The translations under genes were made by a program, and so were the position numbers. Positions 7,459 through 21,493 of a stretch of DNA of 64,000 bases are shown one piece after another. Position 1 is the stretch's first letter. The number at the start of each line of letters is the position of its first letter. Source of the stretch: Beverwykella pulmonaria (Eukaryota; Ascomycota; Dothideomycetes; Pleosporales; Melanommataceae); contig BCHH01000005.1 in the NCBI GenBank assembly GCA_001599595.1, positions 1,831,667-1,895,666 on the forward strand, read 5' to 3'. The notes beneath the pieces are model-generated. The model saw only the letters and a list, made by a program, of their open reading frames with translations, did no database searches and was not told the DNA's origin.

Positions 7459-8493
7459 ATGGCTACCACGATCTCACTACCGCGTCACAACATCGTCTTC
7501 ACGCTCCCACGAACAAGCTCAAACCTTCTAACACAGATCCTCAACCTCCCCGCCCAGCCAAATATACTTCGCCACCCCTCAGACGGGTACATCTTCTTTC
7601 CACCGACCATCCACCGGTTTACACACAATCTCGCAGGCAAGAATGTGGATACATGGACGGATGAAGAACGGCGTGGAATGAGAGAAGCGTTCCAAAAGGC
7701 ATATTCCGACCTCGAGAAGTGGATGGGAGAAGCGCAGGAACAAGGAAAAGGTATTTTTATTAAGGAGCATATCAATTGGCTTGTGGAGCCTGGCCGAGAA
7801 TCATGGTACCTCTGGGACGAGGAAAGCAGTACTGAGGAAGACGCATTCACAATCACACCTTCCGACCATTCCTCCTCGCGCTCCAGATCTATAGCCAACG
7901 AAACGTGTCTTCCCGACGTCATCCTCGGTCGCTTATCCCCAACAATCCTAATCCGTAACCCACTCCTTACGTTCCCGAGCCTCCTCCGCACTAGCATCGA
8001 TAACGAGGGCTTGGAAACTGTTTTAGCAACTCCGACGAAGCAGTGGCTCTGGGAATCGGCATTCCCTTGGTCGAGGTCCCTCTACGATTTCTACACCACC
8101 ACCTTACCTGCCACCGCTCGCGCGACGAATACCCCGGGGATCGAATATCCGATCGTTCTCGACGCAGATGACCTCTCGAACCCAGAACTTATGAGACGCT
8201 ACGCGAAGGCTGTAGGACTGAAAGAGGATTTGGTGCGGTTCCAGTGGGATGCAGCGAGTGAAGAGGAGGTAAAGAATATTGGGGCAGTAGAGAGGAGAAT
8301 GAAGGATACGCTGTTGGCTAGTAAAGGGATTGTAGAAGGGAAGATGGCGCGGGGGTTGAGCGTGGAGACGGAGAGGGGGAAGTGGCATGAGGAGTTTGGT
8401 GGGGTTTTGGCGGGTCGGTTAGTAGAGATTGTTGGGGTGGTGAGGAGTGATTATGAAGAGTTGTGGAAGAGGAGGTTGGGGATGACGCTGTAG
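7459..8493 (+). CDS. Sulfotransferase-like P-loop protein
   Basis: This single-exon gene encodes 344 residues. The N-terminus, VFTLPRTSSNLL at about residues 13-24, looks like the PAPS 5'-phosphosulfate-binding loop of sulfotransferase-fold proteins, where fungal members often have LPRTASNLL-type sequences. A later LIRNPLLTFPS at about 163-173 resembles the RxP-type 3'-phosphate-binding segment. The middle contains GIFIKEHINWL, which is usual for this fungal family. Family members are often annotated only as hypothetical, and some occur in secondary-metabolite clusters, but no biosynthetic genes surround this one. The substrate is unknown. The ATG at 7459 is chosen because the P-loop follows it immediately and the frame is open without an intron. 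Confidence 0.7.
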   Translation: MATTISLPRHNIVFTLPRTSSNLLTQILNLPAQPNILRHPSDGYIFFPPTIHRFTHNLAGKNVDTWTDEERRGMREAFQKAYSDLEKWMGEAQEQGKGIFIKEHINWLVEPGRESWYLWDEESSTEEDAFTITPSDHSSSRSRSIANETCLPDVILGRLSPTILIRNPLLTFPSLLRTSIDNEGLETVLATPTKQWLWESAFPWSRSLYDFYTTTLPATARATNTPGIEYPIVLDADDLSNPELMRRYAKAVGLKEDLVRFQWDAASEEEVKNIGAVERRMKDTLLASKGIVEGKMARGLSVETERGKWHEEFGGVLAGRLVEIVGVVRSDYEELWKRRLGMTL

Positions 8494-10323: not shown

Positions 10324-11148
10324 ATGTCTCCAAATATTCTACTTTCCCAGTTTTTCCTTCCCGTATCAGCCGTCAGCCTTGGACGCTTCGTTACCAGCTT
10401 AGACGACCCTCTTCAAGACTTCCACGATCCTATACACACTACTGGTCCCGTGGTCATTGAGAATTTCCAGGCCCAGTATCATAGTTTTCAACACTCTGTC
10501 AAGCATCGAAGTGTGGCATCACAGCTTACCACCTTCCTTTCCTCGTCTTTTTCGAAGCGTCTCAAAACGTCAGTTGAGGTTTCGGCCCATGAGATTAAGA
10601 CGTATTACTTGAACAATGCCGGGCAATATTTCCGAGATGCAGTACAGTCCAAAGAAACTCGGAAGTGGATTGAAAGAACCATTGACGAAGGAGAGGACAT
10701 TTATGTCATCGTAGCCTGTCACACATTAACCAACGCTCGAATAAGAGAACATATGGGTGATCAAAGCGCCACTGCCGGAAACTTGACGATACCTGTGTCA
10801 ACAGCGCTGACAGCTTCGGGCGTAGTTGTACCGGTCAACATTGGGGACCCTGGGCTCAGTGGCTTTCACGGCCATTCAGAGAACGAACAAAGACAATTCA
10901 CAGCACCAGGCGAACAAATATTTGCAGTACAATATCGCAAGGTTTGCTGGAGGTGGTTTTCAAGCAATAAGGTAGATAAGATGACGCTTGCGAAGAAAGC
11001 AGGGTGGGAAAGATACGATAGGCTAAGGGATATCGGGACCGAGGCTGAAGACATGATTGAAGTGGAGCTAGAAGATGAGATGGCATTGGAAAGAGACCAT
11101 GACGAATGCGTCGTGGAGTCTGGGGAGGTTTTCGTCTCAACTGCATAA
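10324..11148 (+). CDS. Gasdermin-like pore-forming protein (RCD-1/HET-Q1 type)
   Basis: A single exon of 274 residues. The frame is open upstream to 10201, but the ATG at 10324 gives the compact N-terminus MSPNILLSQFFLPVSAVSLG and follows a TATA-like box. The length agrees with known fungal gasdermin-like proteins (roughly 250-280 residues). The central part follows the order seen in gasdermin N-terminal domains: a KWIERTIDEGEDIYVIVACH segment comparable to the xxVYVVTEV strand region, then a variable loop, then FTAPGEQIFAVQYRKV, comparable to the later TIPSGSTLAFRV strand. A charged tail rich in Glu, Asp and Arg follows from about residue 220 and would be the part removed to release the pore-forming domain. 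No signal peptide is expected, as the protein acts from the cytosol on the plasma membrane. Its neighbour 644 bases downstream on the same strand is a caspase-like CHAT protease, the partner type known for this family. The assignment rests on remembered family patterns, not an alignment. Confidence 0.65.
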   Translation: MSPNILLSQFFLPVSAVSLGRFVTSLDDPLQDFHDPIHTTGPVVIENFQAQYHSFQHSVKHRSVASQLTTFLSSSFSKRLKTSVEVSAHEIKTYYLNNAGQYFRDAVQSKETRKWIERTIDEGEDIYVIVACHTLTNARIREHMGDQSATAGNLTIPVSTALTASGVVVPVNIGDPGLSGFHGHSENEQRQFTAPGEQIFAVQYRKVCWRWFSSNKVDKMTLAKKAGWERYDRLRDIGTEAEDMIEVELEDEMALERDHDECVVESGEVFVSTA

Positions 11149-11792
11149 TTCGCATTTTGACATTTAGTCAATGTTTCGACAGAAACACTTTGTAACATTT
11201 GCTTAGACAAAGCATGGCAAAGCTGTAAGCTTTACATTATCAGCAAAGGTTAAGAGGGTGAAATGCAGTTTATATTATCGTTGGTGAATCCTGTTACTGT
11301 CTCAACCTTACGGGACCGACTGCTGTGCTTCGAACCATACATGCCTGCCACAGCGCCTTAGTTAGCCGGGCTGCGCCACGTTCGTCGAGCTAAACTAAAT
11401 CTCATGACCGGGTCTAATACCGGTACCACAACCCTTCTCTATCATACGGCACCAACTACACCGAAATTCTTATTAACATAGGCAACATTAACAGTCTCCT
11501 CCGATCTCAACTTACAACACGCTTAACTTATAGGCCATTATTCTGATACTTCTAGCGCCATCATTAACAATTTTCGAGAATTTGCAACCACCGACCCTGT
11601 GTGTGGCTGGGATTACCGGTAATTAAGTGATGCATGCCAAGGCATCCCCCAGTTTATGAATAGGGCCGATTGCCAGAGCAGGTTTAACACACGCCACGGT
11701 TTACCGTACTAGTAAGCTGTAATCTTAAACAGCCTCGTTATAGGTTTTTCAGTTGCCTCTGCATCTCACTTCCTGCAACTTTTTTCGACAGC
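11149..11792. other. Spacer between the gasdermin-like gene and its protease neighbour
   Basis: A 644-base stretch with no open frame of note. It must hold the 3' end of one gene and the promoter of the other, since fungal neighbours on the same strand are normally transcribed separately. The last 90 bases are T- and C-rich before the ATG at 11793. Confidence 0.5.
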
Positions 11793-14700
11793 ATGGAAGA
11801 TAAATTCGATCTCGACACGCACATTCTCCAAAACTTCGCGCTTTTCTCGAGCTTAGCAGCTAACAAAGATGACAGTTTCCGAACATCCTTGTATATGCAC
11901 TACGCTGTGCTAAAATTCAAGTTATTTGAGCGTTGGGGGCGAACAGAAGATATTGAGGAAGCGATTGAGAAGGGGATGCATGCGGTGAAGGAAACACCAG
12001 CAGAGGATAATGCCTATGTCGAAAGATTAAACGGCCTAGGGAACATGTTCGAAAGTCGATACGAACGCCTAGGAATCATGGAGGATCTTGAAATGGCGAC
12101 TCGATTGGCACGCCAGGCCGTTGATATTACGCCCAAAGACTGCCCAGATCTTGCAATCTACCTGAACAACCTTGGAAACAAGCTAGAACTCAGATACGAA
12201 TGCACCAGGAAGAAAGAAGATCTTGAGGAGGCAATTCGAATAGCGCGACAAGCCCTCAGTATTCCGACTAGAGACTCATTAGCTCTAGCAGGGATGCTCA
12301 ATAATCTAGGGACCAAACTTGAAAACCGATACGAATGCACAGGAAAAATAGAGGACCTTGAAGAGGCGATTCATTTAGCGCAGCAGGCCATCAAGGCTAC
12401 GACAGAAGCTCTTCCAGATCTCGCGGCCTGGTTTAACCAAGGAATTCAACACAAAGACCAACGTAAACGTACAGAAAATACAGTGGACATAGAGGCGAGT
12501 CAAGTGGCACAGCAGCCCGATATCCTCATGCCTGAAGATAGTGGAAGTCTTTCAGGGATACTACACAATCTAGGAAATAGACTTGGTCGCCGATATGAGT
12601 TCACAGGGAACATAGGGGACCTCGAAGAGGCAATTCAAGTAGTTAGACAAGCTGTGAGTATCATGCCTGAAGATCATCCAGATCTAGCAGGGCGGCTTGA
12701 CAACCTTGGAATTAAACTCAGTCACCGCTACGAACGAACAGGGAGGACAGAAGACCTTGAAGAGTCGATTCAAGTTGCTCAGCAGGCCATTGACATCACT
12801 CTCGATGGCCATATAGACCTAGCAGCCAGGCTAAATAACCTCGGAAATCATCTCTCAAGACGATACAAACGTACAGGGAAGATAGAAGACCTTGAAGAAG
12901 CGATTCGAGTAGCTCAGCAGGCTGTTAACGTCACCCCTGAAGAGCATTCGGATTTTGCAATGTGGCTAAACAACCTGGGAAACAAACTTGAAAACCTATA
13001 CATACGCACAGAAAAGATAGAAGACCTTGAAGAGGCAATTCGAGTATCTCAGCAGGCTGTTGAAATTACGCCTGAAGAGCATCCAGATCTTCCAATGTGG
13101 CTAAACAACCTGGGAAATAAACTTGAAGGACGATACGCACACACAGAGAATATAGAGGACCTTAAAGAGGCAATTCGTATAACTGAACTAGCTGTCAATC
13201 TAACGCCTGAAGGTCATCCAGATCTTGCAGCGAGGTTGAACAATCTTGGAAACAGTTTGGAAAGCCGATATAAGGTTACAAAACAGATAGAGGACCTTGA
13301 AGAGGCAATCCAGTTGACACAACAGGGTATCAGCGTTACGAATGAAAACTCTCCAGACCTTGCACTCTGGTTGAGTAACTTAGGAAGCAAACTGAAAAGC
13401 AGATATGAGCACACGGGAGAGGTGAAGGATCTCGAAGACGCAATCAAGATGACTCAACAAGCTTGGAGATGCGAGAACGCAATTCCCTTTGTTCGTATAA
13501 GTGCCTCTGTTCTCGCTCTCCAGTTGCTCCAGACCCAAGAGGACTTCGAGAGCGCCTATAACCTCTCAGTTGAGACTTTAAGCCTGCTACACTACGTCCA
13601 CAACAGGTCTCTAAGCCACGAAGATCAAAAGTACGTCCTCTCGCACTTTTCTGGACTAGCTACATCTGCCTGTTCTCTTGCTCTACAAATAGGAAAGGGT
13701 CCAGATACAGCCTTAGAGTTGCTAGAGCAAGGGCGCGGAGTCATCCTCCGTCTTCTTTTCAATGACCGAAGCGATACCTCTAAGTTAAAGGCCACCCATC
13801 CCGAGTTGTGGGCCCGATACGAGAGTCTTCGCTTGGAAATAAACCAACCTGTCGAAAATATCAGACAAGATCGCACGCGGAGGACTGCCTCAACAAGACG
13901 AATAGAAGCAATCACAAAGCTAGAGGAGTGTATACAAGATATCCGGCAGCTTCCCGTGTTCAGTCAGTTTCAGAAAGGCCTCACTGCCAAGCAGATGCAG
14001 GACTGCTCTACGGAAGGCAGCATTATTATAGTCAACGTCACGACTCTCCGGAGCGATGCCATAATCATTACTCCTGGCGCATCTAAGGTCGTTCCGATTC
14101 CCGATTTGAGTGCGCGGCAATCCATGGACTGGACTAATCAGGACCTTACCACTTTATCGAGCGACCGCGGTCGCAAGAACAGAGCCTACCTAAAGTTCTT
14201 GTCGTGGCTCTGGCACGGATGTGTAAAGCCTATCTTTGAAGAGCTTCAGTACCACGTACAGCCTTCGGCGGAAGACCTACCGAGGGTTTGGTGGATTGGC
14301 ACCGGCCTTGCTAGTTCCTTTCCCTTCAATTCTGCAGGAGATTTTTCTGCTGGGACGACTGAAAGTGCGTTTTACCGAGCCATTTCGTCCTATACGCCAA
14401 CAATCAAAGCCCTTCAATATTCTCGCGAGCTTAGAGGAACCACTCTCTCATCACGCTGCGATTCTTGGAAAGTACTTGTGATAAGTATGCCTACAACCCC
14501 TGGTGTAGGGAGAGTTTTAGCGAGCAGAGAAGAGGCATCTGAGGTTATTGCAGCTCTGGGGGCTTCTGCTTCTGTAGAGGTTCTAGAGCACCCAGACGTC
14601 CCAAGCACCATGATTCAGCTCCAGCAGTGCGACATTGCCCACTTTGCCTGCCACGGGATTTCGGATTCGATAGACCCGTCTAGTAGTGGTCTAATACTGC

Positions 14701-15095
14701 AGACCAATGGGACAGTGACTGAAGAGCTGAAGCAGGACATACTGAGCGTTCGCGAGGTATCCCAGGCGCACCTCTCGCAGGCGCAGATTGCATATCTCTC
14801 TGCCTGCTCAACCGCGCAGAACAGGGCAGAAGAGCTGTCAGACGAAGTGCTCCACGTTGTCAGTGGATTCCAAGTTGCTGGATTCAGGCATGTAATTGGG
14901 TGTCTGTGGCCGTCTGAAGATCAAGTATGCGTAGATATTGCAAAATCTTTTTACTCTGAGCGGAGGAAAGCTGCGATGTACGACGACAAAGCCACTGCAT
15001 TGTCATTACACAAGGCTGTTATGAGGGTTCGAGAAAATCGGGAGTTCTGTAAGCGCCCACTGTTCTGGGCGCAGTATGTGCATTTTGGGGCGTAA
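11793..15095 (+). CDS. TPR-CHAT caspase-like protease
   Basis: A single exon of 1100 residues. Residues from about 50 to 560 form eleven to twelve tandem tetratricopeptide units of about 45 residues, each with the pattern DLEEAIRVAQQAV followed by LNNLGNKLxxRY. Repeats 4 and 5 are the most diverged. After a helical linker, the C-terminal third is a CHAT domain (PF12770, caspase/separase clan). The catalytic His is His954 in HFACHG and the catalytic Cys is Cys1005 in YLSACSTA, followed by the usual VSGFQVAGFRHVIGCLW. Both dyad residues are present, so the enzyme should be active. The TPR array probably senses a ligand or scaffolds a complex. TPR-CHAT proteases cleave gasdermins or other partners in bacteria, and in fungi CHAT or subtilisin-type proteases neighbour gasdermin genes. 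The adjacent gene at 10324-11148 is the natural candidate substrate. The reading frame is intact. Confidence 0.9.
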   Translation: MEDKFDLDTHILQNFALFSSLAANKDDSFRTSLYMHYAVLKFKLFERWGRTEDIEEAIEKGMHAVKETPAEDNAYVERLNGLGNMFESRYERLGIMEDLEMATRLARQAVDITPKDCPDLAIYLNNLGNKLELRYECTRKKEDLEEAIRIARQALSIPTRDSLALAGMLNNLGTKLENRYECTGKIEDLEEAIHLAQQAIKATTEALPDLAAWFNQGIQHKDQRKRTENTVDIEASQVAQQPDILMPEDSGSLSGILHNLGNRLGRRYEFTGNIGDLEEAIQVVRQAVSIMPEDHPDLAGRLDNLGIKLSHRYERTGRTEDLEESIQVAQQAIDITLDGHIDLAARLNNLGNHLSRRYKRTGKIEDLEEAIRVAQQAVNVTPEEHSDFAMWLNNLGNKLENLYIRTEKIEDLEEAIRVSQQAVEITPEEHPDLPMWLNNLGNKLEGRYAHTENIEDLKEAIRITELAVNLTPEGHPDLAARLNNLGNSLESRYKVTKQIEDLEEAIQLTQQGISVTNENSPDLALWLSNLGSKLKSRYEHTGEVKDLEDAIKMTQQAWRCENAIPFVRISASVLALQLLQTQEDFESAYNLSVETLSLLHYVHNRSLSHEDQKYVLSHFSGLATSACSLALQIGKGPDTALELLEQGRGVILRLLFNDRSDTSKLKATHPELWARYESLRLEINQPVENIRQDRTRRTASTRRIEAITKLEECIQDIRQLPVFSQFQKGLTAKQMQDCSTEGSIIIVNVTTLRSDAIIITPGASKVVPIPDLSARQSMDWTNQDLTTLSSDRGRKNRAYLKFLSWLWHGCVKPIFEELQYHVQPSAEDLPRVWWIGTGLASSFPFNSAGDFSAGTTESAFYRAISSYTPTIKALQYSRELRGTTLSSRCDSWKVLVISMPTTPGVGRVLASREEASEVIAALGASASVEVLEHPDVPSTMIQLQQCDIAHFACHGISDSIDPSSSGLILQTNGTVTEELKQDILSVREVSQAHLSQAQIAYLSACSTAQNRAEELSDEVLHVVSGFQVAGFRHVIGCLWPSEDQVCVDIAKSFYSERRKAAMYDDKATALSLHKAVMRVRENREFCKRPLFWAQYVHFGA

Positions 15096-18207: not shown

Positions 18208-21200
18208 TTAACCTTGCTCTGCTTTCAACGCTTCCAGCTTCTGGACCTGCCGCCTCAGCATCACCATAGCACCCAGACTAATCCTTCTCAATCCGTCGCG
18301 CTCCGCTCCATCCTCGGCCCTCTCGCTACGCTCTAGGATGTCTTTTGATGCGGCGACAGCCTTTTCGAGCAGTTTTGGTGCATCGTCCCTTTTACTAAGA
18401 TACAGATATTTGACTTCGTTCTCGAATGGATCAACGTCAGCGGTGAGGGCGCGAACAATGAACGCTCGAGCGCGGAAGTATGCTCGCTCAGTGTACAGCG
18501 CGCTGCTGAGTTTTGTTTCTGGAGCCTCGCGGTGGACGTCGTAGCCAGCTTCATTGTAGTATGGCTCTTTGACGAGAACGAGACCCATGATGGACACAAG
18601 GACTTGGAGCAGTGTGCTTTTCGCAGGGCTCCAGTTTTCGTTTCGTTCGTCGGCGTGCCAGGTTCCTAACAAGCTGAGGCAAATCTTGCCGTCTTCGTAT
18701 AGATTCGGGTTGACAGGGCCTTCAGCATTTGTCCAGGAGTGGAAAAATGCTTTGGGTGGCACTTGAGGGTAGGAGGAGTCGAGGTGGAAGTCGATAACGA
18801 AGGGGGCATATTCGTAAGGCGTGTCCGAGGGGCCGATCATGAGAACACGGATGAGATCGAGACGCGACTCCCAGGTCCGGACGAAGATTCCAGGAGGGAG
18901 GGATGAGCGTAGTATTTTGTGCTCTTTTGCGACTCGCCGTGTGAATGTGGACGAGGAAGCAGAGGACACATTCAGGTAGTGGTGATTTGTTGGCGGTGGG
19001 GCGTCGAGGATCAAGAATGATGAAGGGGGGTCATCGGCGTCTGTGCGAGTGTTGTGAAGGACAGGGATGGAGACGGAAGGATCATCCACGTCCATTTCAC
19101 TTGTATTGGCCTCCGATGTGATTGCAATGTTGGTTGGATGGGTAATCTCCAATGGTGATTTTTGTTCCCCCTCCGAGTGCAGCTCCGGTGTTGTTTTCGA
19201 GGTCTCGATGCCATCTGGTATGACGAGATCAGGCATAGAATCGTCGGAGTCGTCTCCATCATCCTCATCTTCTGTAGACCAATCTTCTTCATTGCCGATG
19301 CTCATTGGTTCTCCATCCATGCCCTCGTACTCGATCCACGTCTCATTGAAAAATGCAGAATCGAAGTCGGAGCCATCTTCGTCCGAATCTTCCACAGATT
19401 CTCCTTCCAGCGTTGGCATGTCGAACATGTGGTTGTCCATATCACTGCTATAAACAAGCGTCACGCGCTCCGCGGCAATTCGGATGTCCACCACAGGCTT
19501 CGCGGCACCCAGCCTAACCGTGACCTTCCCGTCAAGACCCAAGTCAATTATTTCTCCAAACCAGTCTGGGCCAAGAGAGCGAATGTTGCGCACCGCCGGA
19601 ACGGAATCTGGATGTATCAAGACAAAATCTCCTCGACGTCGGGTCAGGCTAGGAGTCGATCGTATGTCGTAGAGGCTGACATCCTCGGTTGCGTCACAGA
19701 GGGGACCTGTCTCGGATGGCGGAATCAAGTCATCACCAAGGAAGTGGATGTTTGCATGCTTGAACCAGCGGACAGTTGCTATGCGATCGTGCGGCTTAAC
19801 GGATTGCACCACGCCCGTTCTCGCAGGTTCAAATGTCCACGTTGTGTCGGGATTCTTCTCTTTCCGCTGTTCTTTTGTGCAGACAATCTCCCCGGGCCAA
19901 ACCTCATCATCGTCCTCCACATTGGGATCGGGAACTAGCGACGGGCTCATGTCTTCTGTGATGGAAAGATCTTGCCACTGCACGGTGACTTGGGTGTGAG
20001 TCTGCATGACCAAGAACACGTTCAAGTCGTAGCCTAGAGATTCGGTCCGCGGTACTCTCGTTAGCCTTCCTTGTGGGTGTCCATCCGGCAGTATGCGGCT
20101 CCCGTCATACTTGACAGCCGCTCCCGTCAAGTCTTTGAAGCGCACACGGTCACCCACAGCGATTTCAGCAACGTGGTATGACCGATCTTGGCCGTTGGTA
20201 GACACGGGTAAGGTGGCGACGGCACCGCGGGAAGCATCGTAGACATAGAAGTTAGGGCTTTCCAAGTCGTCGGTAGTCAGCCGGGGAGAGGGCTCCAAGC
20301 CATGTGAGAGGATGGAGCTTCCTGCGAATCTCTTGGCCAGCCAGTGTACATCGACCATGACGGTGCGGGTTTCCACAACCATGCCCTGGGGCCGGATGTT
20401 CGGCTCGTAGGCACCGTATCGCCAACGCCCTCGCCGCAAGTTGACCTTTTTCGTCTTGACCGTATCGCCGACGCTGATTCGGTCGAGCATGGGGTCATCG
20501 TTGTCCAAGTCGTCCGGGTTCTCGACAATGACTACCGAGTTGTTGGACAGCCTGAGGGCCACCTCGTCGTGCACCTGGTCTATTCGTCCGATCCAGTCAT
20601 CGTAGACAACCAGGGCTCCCTCGACGTACTCGTGGACATTCAACAGCTCGTCTGCGGGCACGCCGCGTATGGAGAGGTCCTCGGCCAAAACCTGGGTGAG
20701 CTGGCCGCCATTGAAATGGGTTGCTGGGAAGAGCGTGCAGGTGGCTTTGGTGCCAATGACGGTGCCGCTCATGGGGTCTTTGGCGTTCCGCTTGACCACA
20801 TCTCCCACATACAGCGCGCGGTCGAGGAGGTCCAGGCGCGGCTCCGGTATGAGTTCCGTCTTGAGCTGTGTTTGCCACGACACCAGCACGGTGCCCCGCG
20901 GCGGAATGCCTGTCTTGAGGAACTTGGAGAAAAGGTCTCGCGGGATATCGTCGTGGCGCTCTATATCATCGCCGTAGTCGCGCTGGGGGCGGGGCTCGTG
21001 GGAGTCGACATCCCCGAACGAGCGGTCCACGACGCCCACCATGTACTTGTCGTCTTTGAGACTGACGGTGTCATCGACGCAGAATCGCACCGCGTCGGCG
21101 GCCATGGCAGGCAGCGTGCGCGCCGCGAGAGAGCTGGGGATGGGCGGCGCTTCGGAGAAGCTTGCGGGTTCTGAGCGGCGGCGGGCGCGGTGAAGGCGGG

Positions 21201-21339
21201 AGTTTTCGGCGGGGGCGGAAGACGCGGTGGAGAGGAGGAGACGGTCCTCGAAGAGCTGGCGGAGCAGGCGTTCGAACCAGCTGGGCGACGCGCGAGCGAT
21301 GTGCGAGTGCGTATTTGTGGCGTCGTTATCACGGTCCAT
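18208..21339 (-). CDS. UBE2O-like E2/E3 hybrid ubiquitin-conjugating enzyme
   Basis: An intronless gene of 1043 residues, starting at the ATG at 21339 ([13 protein letters not shown]). The frame extends 50 codons further upstream, but those codons overlap the divergent COG8 start. The first two thirds carry several SH3/Tudor-like barrel modules with the pattern [19 protein letters not shown] and VHWLAKRF, as in UBE2O (CR1/CR2 regions). An acidic stretch rich in Asp, Glu and Ser follows. The UBC fold is C-terminal, and the active-site cysteine is Cys887 in [18 protein letters not shown], the signature HxN-less motif of UBE2O/BIRC6-class E2s. A coiled C-terminal helix ends the protein. UBE2O enzymes ubiquitinate orphan or misassembled basic proteins in cytosol and nucleus. 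It shares a 154-base promoter with COG8. Confidence 0.9.
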
Positions 21340-21493
21340 CTGGAAATAATAATTATCGAAGCGCCGACGACAAAAAAGGGCTGAAGAGCCGCATGTGAAT
21401 GGGTCCCCACCATGCTTGCTGTCTGCCCCATCCGCCAGCGACCACGCAGCAGCCGCGACAACCACCGCGACGGCCCGCGAGCAAACCATACCA
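21340..21493. promoter_or_regulatory. Bidirectional promoter of the E2 gene and COG8
   Basis: Only 154 bases separate the two divergent start codons, so the 5' regions must be shared. No clear TATA is visible in either direction, which fits housekeeping genes. Confidence 0.55.

Follow-up and report, generated by a model that had tools for sequence, protein, structure and literature searches.

Does the small gene lying upstream of a TPR-CHAT protease gene encode a gasdermin-like pore former, and do the two genes act together in regulated cell death? This question is raised by a window of 64,000 nucleotides, the whole stretch analysed here (C5:1831667-1895666 of a 45.6-Mb assembly of 31 contigs), the source of which we judge by its gene content to be a fungus. 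We consider it quite probable that the two genes, here called A and B, constitute a fungal regulated-cell-death module in which the sensor-protease B would release the gasdermin-like pore former A.

The gene pair and the TPR-CHAT protease

Gene A (10324..11148, plus strand) encodes 274 amino acids from ATG to TAA and gene B (11793..15095, plus strand) encodes 1,100 amino acids, the two being separated by an intergenic gap of 644 bp (11149..11792). These coordinates agree with the first-pass annotation, which had placed a 274-codon gene 644 bp upstream of a TPR-CHAT gene on the same strand. Judged from the DNA alone, each of the two genes consists of one uninterrupted open frame. From the upstream stop codon to 10324 two in-frame ATGs were found, and 10324 is the likely start of gene A since the methionines of its relative on C2 and of a further copy on C3 (both described below) are level with it. 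Two other long frames near the pair bear a resemblance by eye, the one at 18208-21489 on the minus strand to a large ubiquitin-conjugating-enzyme protein and the one at 7459-8493 on the plus strand to a sulfotransferase-like protein.

The CHAT domain of gene B (residues 802-1099; 14196..15089, plus strand) matched Pfam PF12770 with an E value of 4.6e-34 and 118.6 bits (cut-off 24), and nine stretches of the protein matched Pfam TPR_10 (E 2.4e-34, 116.8 bits, cut-off 27.5). By motif, the TPR array (residues 78-570; 12024..13502, plus strand) comprises ten units of 45 amino acids, with a stretch at residues 213-255 in which the motif is missing. The predicted catalytic residues His954 (codon 14652..14654, plus strand) and Cys1005 (codon 14805..14807, plus strand) are located in the motifs HFACHG, which begins at residue 950, and SACST, which begins at residue 1003. 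The dyad described as intact in the first reading of the locus is thus indeed complete, and its histidine and cysteine are each conserved in all 11 CHAT domains of the genome that were aligned (the twelfth, at C2:669k, was left out). With TPR and CHAT both above the Pfam cut-offs and the dyad intact, the predicted product of gene B has the features of the TPR-CHAT class; NACHT and NB-ARC, the domains that mark CHAT-bearing NLR proteins, were absent among its 22 listed Pfam families. Gene B also exceeded the Pfam cut-off for CENP-Q (45.2 bits, cut-off 28.5, E 1.5e-11, best stretch 469-510), a match which we take as a likeness to the repeat array, and its PADLOC matches to DruC and AbiGii fall within the TPR array. 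Fresh homogenisation of a repeat array is a mark of fast-evolving fungal sensors. A freshly homogenised array was considered for gene B and found to be unsupported, as even the most alike pair of units reaches only 71% in protein and 79% in DNA.

Gene A as a gasdermin-like candidate

Gene A had been proposed to carry gasdermin-type landmarks, namely GEDIYVIVACH and FTAPGEQIFAVQYRKV. Both stretches are indeed present, and we take the core motifs of gene A to resemble those of gasdermins; recognition of the protein as a gasdermin by Pfam, PADLOC or NCBIfam failed. Nothing matched gene A in PADLOC and NCBIfam, and the Pfam Gasdermin profile (PF04598), run with no established fungal gasdermin to serve as a positive control, gave zero matches genome-wide at E values up to 10. 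Gene A, its C2 relative, core pieces and three alignments were compared with PDB chains, again at E values up to 10 and with no positive control, and no gasdermin was returned; the searches yielded either no match or a few weak ones to unrelated proteins, the best being calcyclin (E 0.11). The sole Pfam match of gene A was a sub-threshold one to DEAD_assoc (E 0.049), and alignment A2, which holds four members, two of them fragments, gave DUF1797 (E 0.005) and SteA-like_C (E 0.26), in one member each. HMMER filters discard weak matches, which bears on the gasdermin negatives, and these negatives in Pfam and PDB carry little weight because no proven fungal gasdermin served as a positive control. 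Relatives of gene A were also sought in prokaryote genomes (41 pattern matches) and viral contigs (three pattern matches per search), none of which was confirmed, and in plasmids, where none was found. One frame at L031:6318-6563 (profile E 0.18 and 0.14) was rejected as a gasdermin, since a longer open frame, read in a different phase across the same stretch, looks by eye like part of the CHAT gene of that locus.

While the profile and sequence searches for a gasdermin thus found no match in Pfam or PDB, the size, layout and neighbourhood of gene A fit. Gene A and its C2 relative encode 274 and 290 amino acids, in line with the roughly 240-290 of fungal gasdermins such as RCD-1 and HET-Q1, with the main conserved block reaching to residue 207 and a tail following it, and at both loci a CHAT domain lies less than 4 kb away, inside the 10 kb within which a protease gene is expected beside a fungal gasdermin. 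Residues 1-207 of gene A (10324..10944, plus strand) are conserved and form the proposed pore-forming domain. The C-terminal tail, residues 208-274 (10945..11145, plus strand), is the proposed inhibitory piece and is placed outside the main BLASTP alignment with the C2 relative. That this alignment ends at residue 207 is as expected of a domain followed by a removable tail. Consistent with the charged tail noted in the first-pass annotation, the segment is acidic, with a net charge of -9 over residues 208-274 and of -12 over residues 230-274; no recognisable cleavage site was found in it. By its size, layout and neighbourhood, gene A is therefore a plausible gasdermin-like candidate.

Gene A might instead encode a non-gasdermin substrate or effector of gene B, such as a membrane-active or signalling protein, comparable to Csx30 and Craspase. 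We regard this as unlikely, as the length, the short acidic tail and the neighbourhood of gene A match fungal gasdermins as reviewed, and the presumed likeness of its core motifs to gasdermins, taken as a lead only, points in the same direction. In its favour, gene A was recognised by none of the libraries or PDB chains searched, and CHAT proteases are able to cleave unrelated partners: Craspase is described as having Csx30 for its natural substrate (PMC11106740, in the part available).

Relatives of the pair and the neighbours of CHAT genes

A relative of gene A was found in the same genome on C2 (L019:5841-6713, 290 amino acids) that is 20% identical over residues 1-207 (pairwise BLASTP E 2e-11), and the two genes were reciprocal matches in searches of their own genome (E 9.9e-7 and 1.6e-6). 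MAFFT aligned their tails with scattered identities. The neighbour of the C2 relative, 708 bp away in head-to-head orientation, is a TPR-CHAT gene whose protein of 1,159 amino acids is 27% identical to gene B over 1,145 aligned columns. A third copy of gene A (L018:4227-5306; C3:2591.7-2592.8k) is disrupted by stop codons and changes of frame, with 48-60% identity remaining in pieces; the 48% piece spans residues 147-274 of gene A, so that the tail has been kept. The last frame of this broken copy continues in frame into one TPR unit, the best match of which was gene B (63%), followed by C5:1562k (60%), among 11 frames of CHAT genes, two of which are short and CHAT-only. No CHAT domain was detected within 225 kb of the C3 copy. 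The two-gene module proposed at the outset is supported by this second, diverged pair and by the broken third copy running into a TPR unit.

A Pfam search of the genome located CHAT domains at 12 places. A tree was calculated from 11 of them, C2:669k being dropped since the query domain did not match there; the rows of C5:1524k and C6:1849k represent incomplete frames. Gene B and the C2 CHAT gene fell within one group of five members (support 87/90), which includes two caspase-linked members, has long branches and is drawn open, and for these reasons the tree is not taken as proof of co-evolution. At the dyad, HFACHG and SACSTA are common to the CHAT domains of gene B, C2:3628k, C4:2331k and C6:1849k (four of the 11 aligned); the other seven have HFAGH[GA] in five cases and HFHGHG and HFAFHG in the remaining two. 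The CHAT genes at C5:1524k (L031) and C6:1849k (L032) each extend across several frames, interrupted either by introns or by damage.

The genome holds at least three A-like loci; of the three detected, two have a CHAT domain no more than 4 kb away. Under uniform placement this corresponds to P = 2e-5, a rough guide in which gene density and shared descent are ignored and the distance was picked post hoc. We find it scarcely credible that the adjacency of A and B is a coincidence and that gene A is unrelated to the CHAT gene. Besides this linkage, the two A-B pairs are strongly diverged, the third A-like locus still has its TPR unit, and in a control none of 19 S8 peptidase loci (merged from 23 matches) had a CHAT domain at a distance of 15 kb or less. 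Coincidence would nevertheless be in keeping with the third A-like locus having no CHAT domain nearby, and with an intact A-like gene occurring within about 5 kb at only two of the 12 CHAT loci, a recognisable A-like gene being absent near the other ten.

Genes for caspase-like C14 peptidases were found next to CHAT domains more widely. The genome-wide search gave ten C14 matches representing nine genes (two neighbouring matches on C1 were joined), seven of which have a CHAT domain no more than 7 kb away, the distances being 1.3, 2.6, 2.6, 2.7, 3.0, 3.0 and 6.8 kb; uniform placement gives P of about 7e-16, again ignoring gene density and shared descent and with the distance picked post hoc. 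Both C14 genes lacking a CHAT domain within 7 kb sit on C1. The linked genes belong to L030 (C4), L032 (C6), L024/L036 (C2), L028/L037 (C15), L026/L038 (C5) and L025/L035 (C9). Searching the fetched loci by tblastn with the seven linked C14 proteins revealed an additional, broken copy at C5:1562k (L027:1572-2463), which is interrupted, stops at query residue 301 and has as its head-to-head neighbour an open CHAT frame of 1,203 codons (L027:3473-7081). A C14 gene is thus found near seven of the 12 CHAT loci, six times intact and once broken: C2:4657k, C4:2331k, C5:788k, C6:1849k (two C14 genes), C9:1611k (at 6.8 kb), C15:994k and C5:1562k (broken). Head-to-head orientation was observed at five of the seven loci (C2, C4, C6:1852k, C15 and C5:1562k). 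The C14 gene at C5:788k and the second one on C6 are tail to tail with CHAT, and at C9 the C14 and CHAT genes share a strand. At C3:2365k, C2:669k and C5:1524k, three of the 12 CHAT loci, neither a C14 gene nor an intact A-like gene was present in 4-5 kb on each side, and the genome-wide search gave no C14 match within 7 kb of them either.

The seven linked C14 proteins range from 521 to 806 amino acids. The histidine motif SGHG is present in all of them and DCC[FHYN]SG in four, the remaining three having DCCHSA, DSCHSG and DCCFSA. The 521-amino-acid protein at C2:4660k (L036:2664-4229) has a C-terminal hydrophobic stretch that by eye resembles a membrane anchor. Pairs aligned by BLASTP (E up to 1e-5) are only 22-50% identical, with the C2 protein aligning by its N-terminal part only, so that the association of CHAT with C14 genes does not go back to a single recent duplication. 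At the level of individual loci, the CHAT proteins of C5:1562k and C9:1611k are 66% identical and the broken C14 copy is 58-60% identical to the C9 C14 protein in two pieces, so that here the CHAT and C14 genes were probably duplicated together.

These findings raise the possibility that TPR-CHAT proteases may drive two kinds of partner. We tentatively propose, as a reading that is possible though we would not yet favour it, that TPR-CHAT proteins form a modular sensor family with interchangeable death partners, in which a gasdermin-like protein would be released directly at two of the 12 loci and a CHAT-to-caspase cascade would operate at the C14 loci; partners would be exchanged around a constant sensor architecture. 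At the latter loci the CHAT protease would cut the caspase-like protease and thereby start the cascade. In bacterial type III CRISPR systems, SAVED-CHAT reportedly acts on a prokaryotic caspase in such a proteolytic cascade. It is named as a CRISPR protease in the portion of the literature available. The presence of a nearby C14 gene at seven of the 12 CHAT loci (one broken), versus an A-like gene at two, is also a point in favour of gene A being a non-gasdermin partner. CHAT/C14 pairs in fungi are not mentioned in the accessible parts of PMC12881547, PMC10197012, PMC9815663, PMC5640708 and PMC13304501. The finding of CHAT genes near caspase-like genes in a fungus may be novel; no report of such pairing was found in the literature searched, from which most subscription journals were excluded, so that one may well be in print.

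Proposed mechanism and comparison with known systems

For the preferred reading, in which A and B form a gasdermin-like module, we envisage that the TPR array of gene B restrains the CHAT cysteine protease and would let it act only once a cue signalling non-self or damage is perceived. Active B would then cleave A near its C-terminus and remove the acidic tail, and the freed N-terminal domain, likely a gasdermin-like pore former, would assemble in the plasma membrane, leading to death of the hyphal compartment. If true, this would represent a compact pyroptosis-like switch in which one protein is both sensor and protease. The stimuli that are sensed are named as a major open question in the consulted part of a 2025 review (PMC12881547), and such pairs could reveal what fungal TPR sensors detect. 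The C14 genes near seven of the 12 CHAT domains would in turn point to a candidate upstream activator for fungal caspase-like proteases, and the CHAT/C14 pattern would make a caspase-like role in cell death testable pair by pair.

The comparison with known systems is drawn from those parts of the cited sources that were available. RCD-1 of Neurospora crassa (257 and 244 amino acids; PMC12881547) is small, like A. Unlike the proposed A, it is described as two alleles that activate together, with no proteolysis observed and no inhibitory domain. The A-B pair might likewise act without proteolysis, variants of A co-activating each other and B serving only to regulate or as a scaffold. We hold this to be very unlikely, as an inhibitory C-terminal domain is absent from RCD-1 as described, whereas 67 residues follow the conserved part of A, and as the dyad of B is intact. 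The release of A by B, as proposed above, has a counterpart in HET-Q1 of Podospora anserina, a pore former of 278 amino acids that becomes active once a short stretch of about 40 residues has been removed from its C-terminus (PMC10989679; PMC12881547), a description that the length of A and its acidic tail beyond residue 207 fit. Its partner HET-Q2 differs from B in being a subtilisin-like S8 protease of 388 amino acids, and het-Q1 and het-Q2 are idiomorphs at one locus, unlike A, which lies beside a TPR-CHAT gene.

In bacterial operons, as proposed for the A-B pair, a gasdermin gene adjoins protease genes, those of caspase-like enzymes (Peptidase C14 or CHAT) among them, and cleavage of bacterial gasdermins takes place about 20 residues before the C-terminus, a likeness by description only (PMC9612521). 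A CHAT-domain protein resembling B, of 1,327 residues, is encoded by the heterokaryon-incompatibility locus hetB of Aspergillus fumigatus, whose authors leave the involvement of a gasdermin open (PMC11138114). In fungi at large, about 80% of gasdermin genes are reported to lie near a protease gene, 63% with S8 and 19% with CHAT within 10 kb (PMC10197012), and CHAT accounts for about 17% of the proteases near fungal gasdermins in a second account (PMC10989679). A similar arrangement is the two-gene cluster of Podospora anserina, in which, as proposed for A and B, a gasdermin gene is clustered with a gene for a TPR-bearing CHAT protease that activates it (Clave et al. 2022, via PMC12881547). For that cluster activation has been reported, whereas A and B are known from sequence alone and are likened to it by description only. 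In view of the reported fungal gasdermin/CHAT pairs and of the P. anserina cluster, the pairing of A and B is already known in kind, and the idea that such a module needs no NLR is not new.
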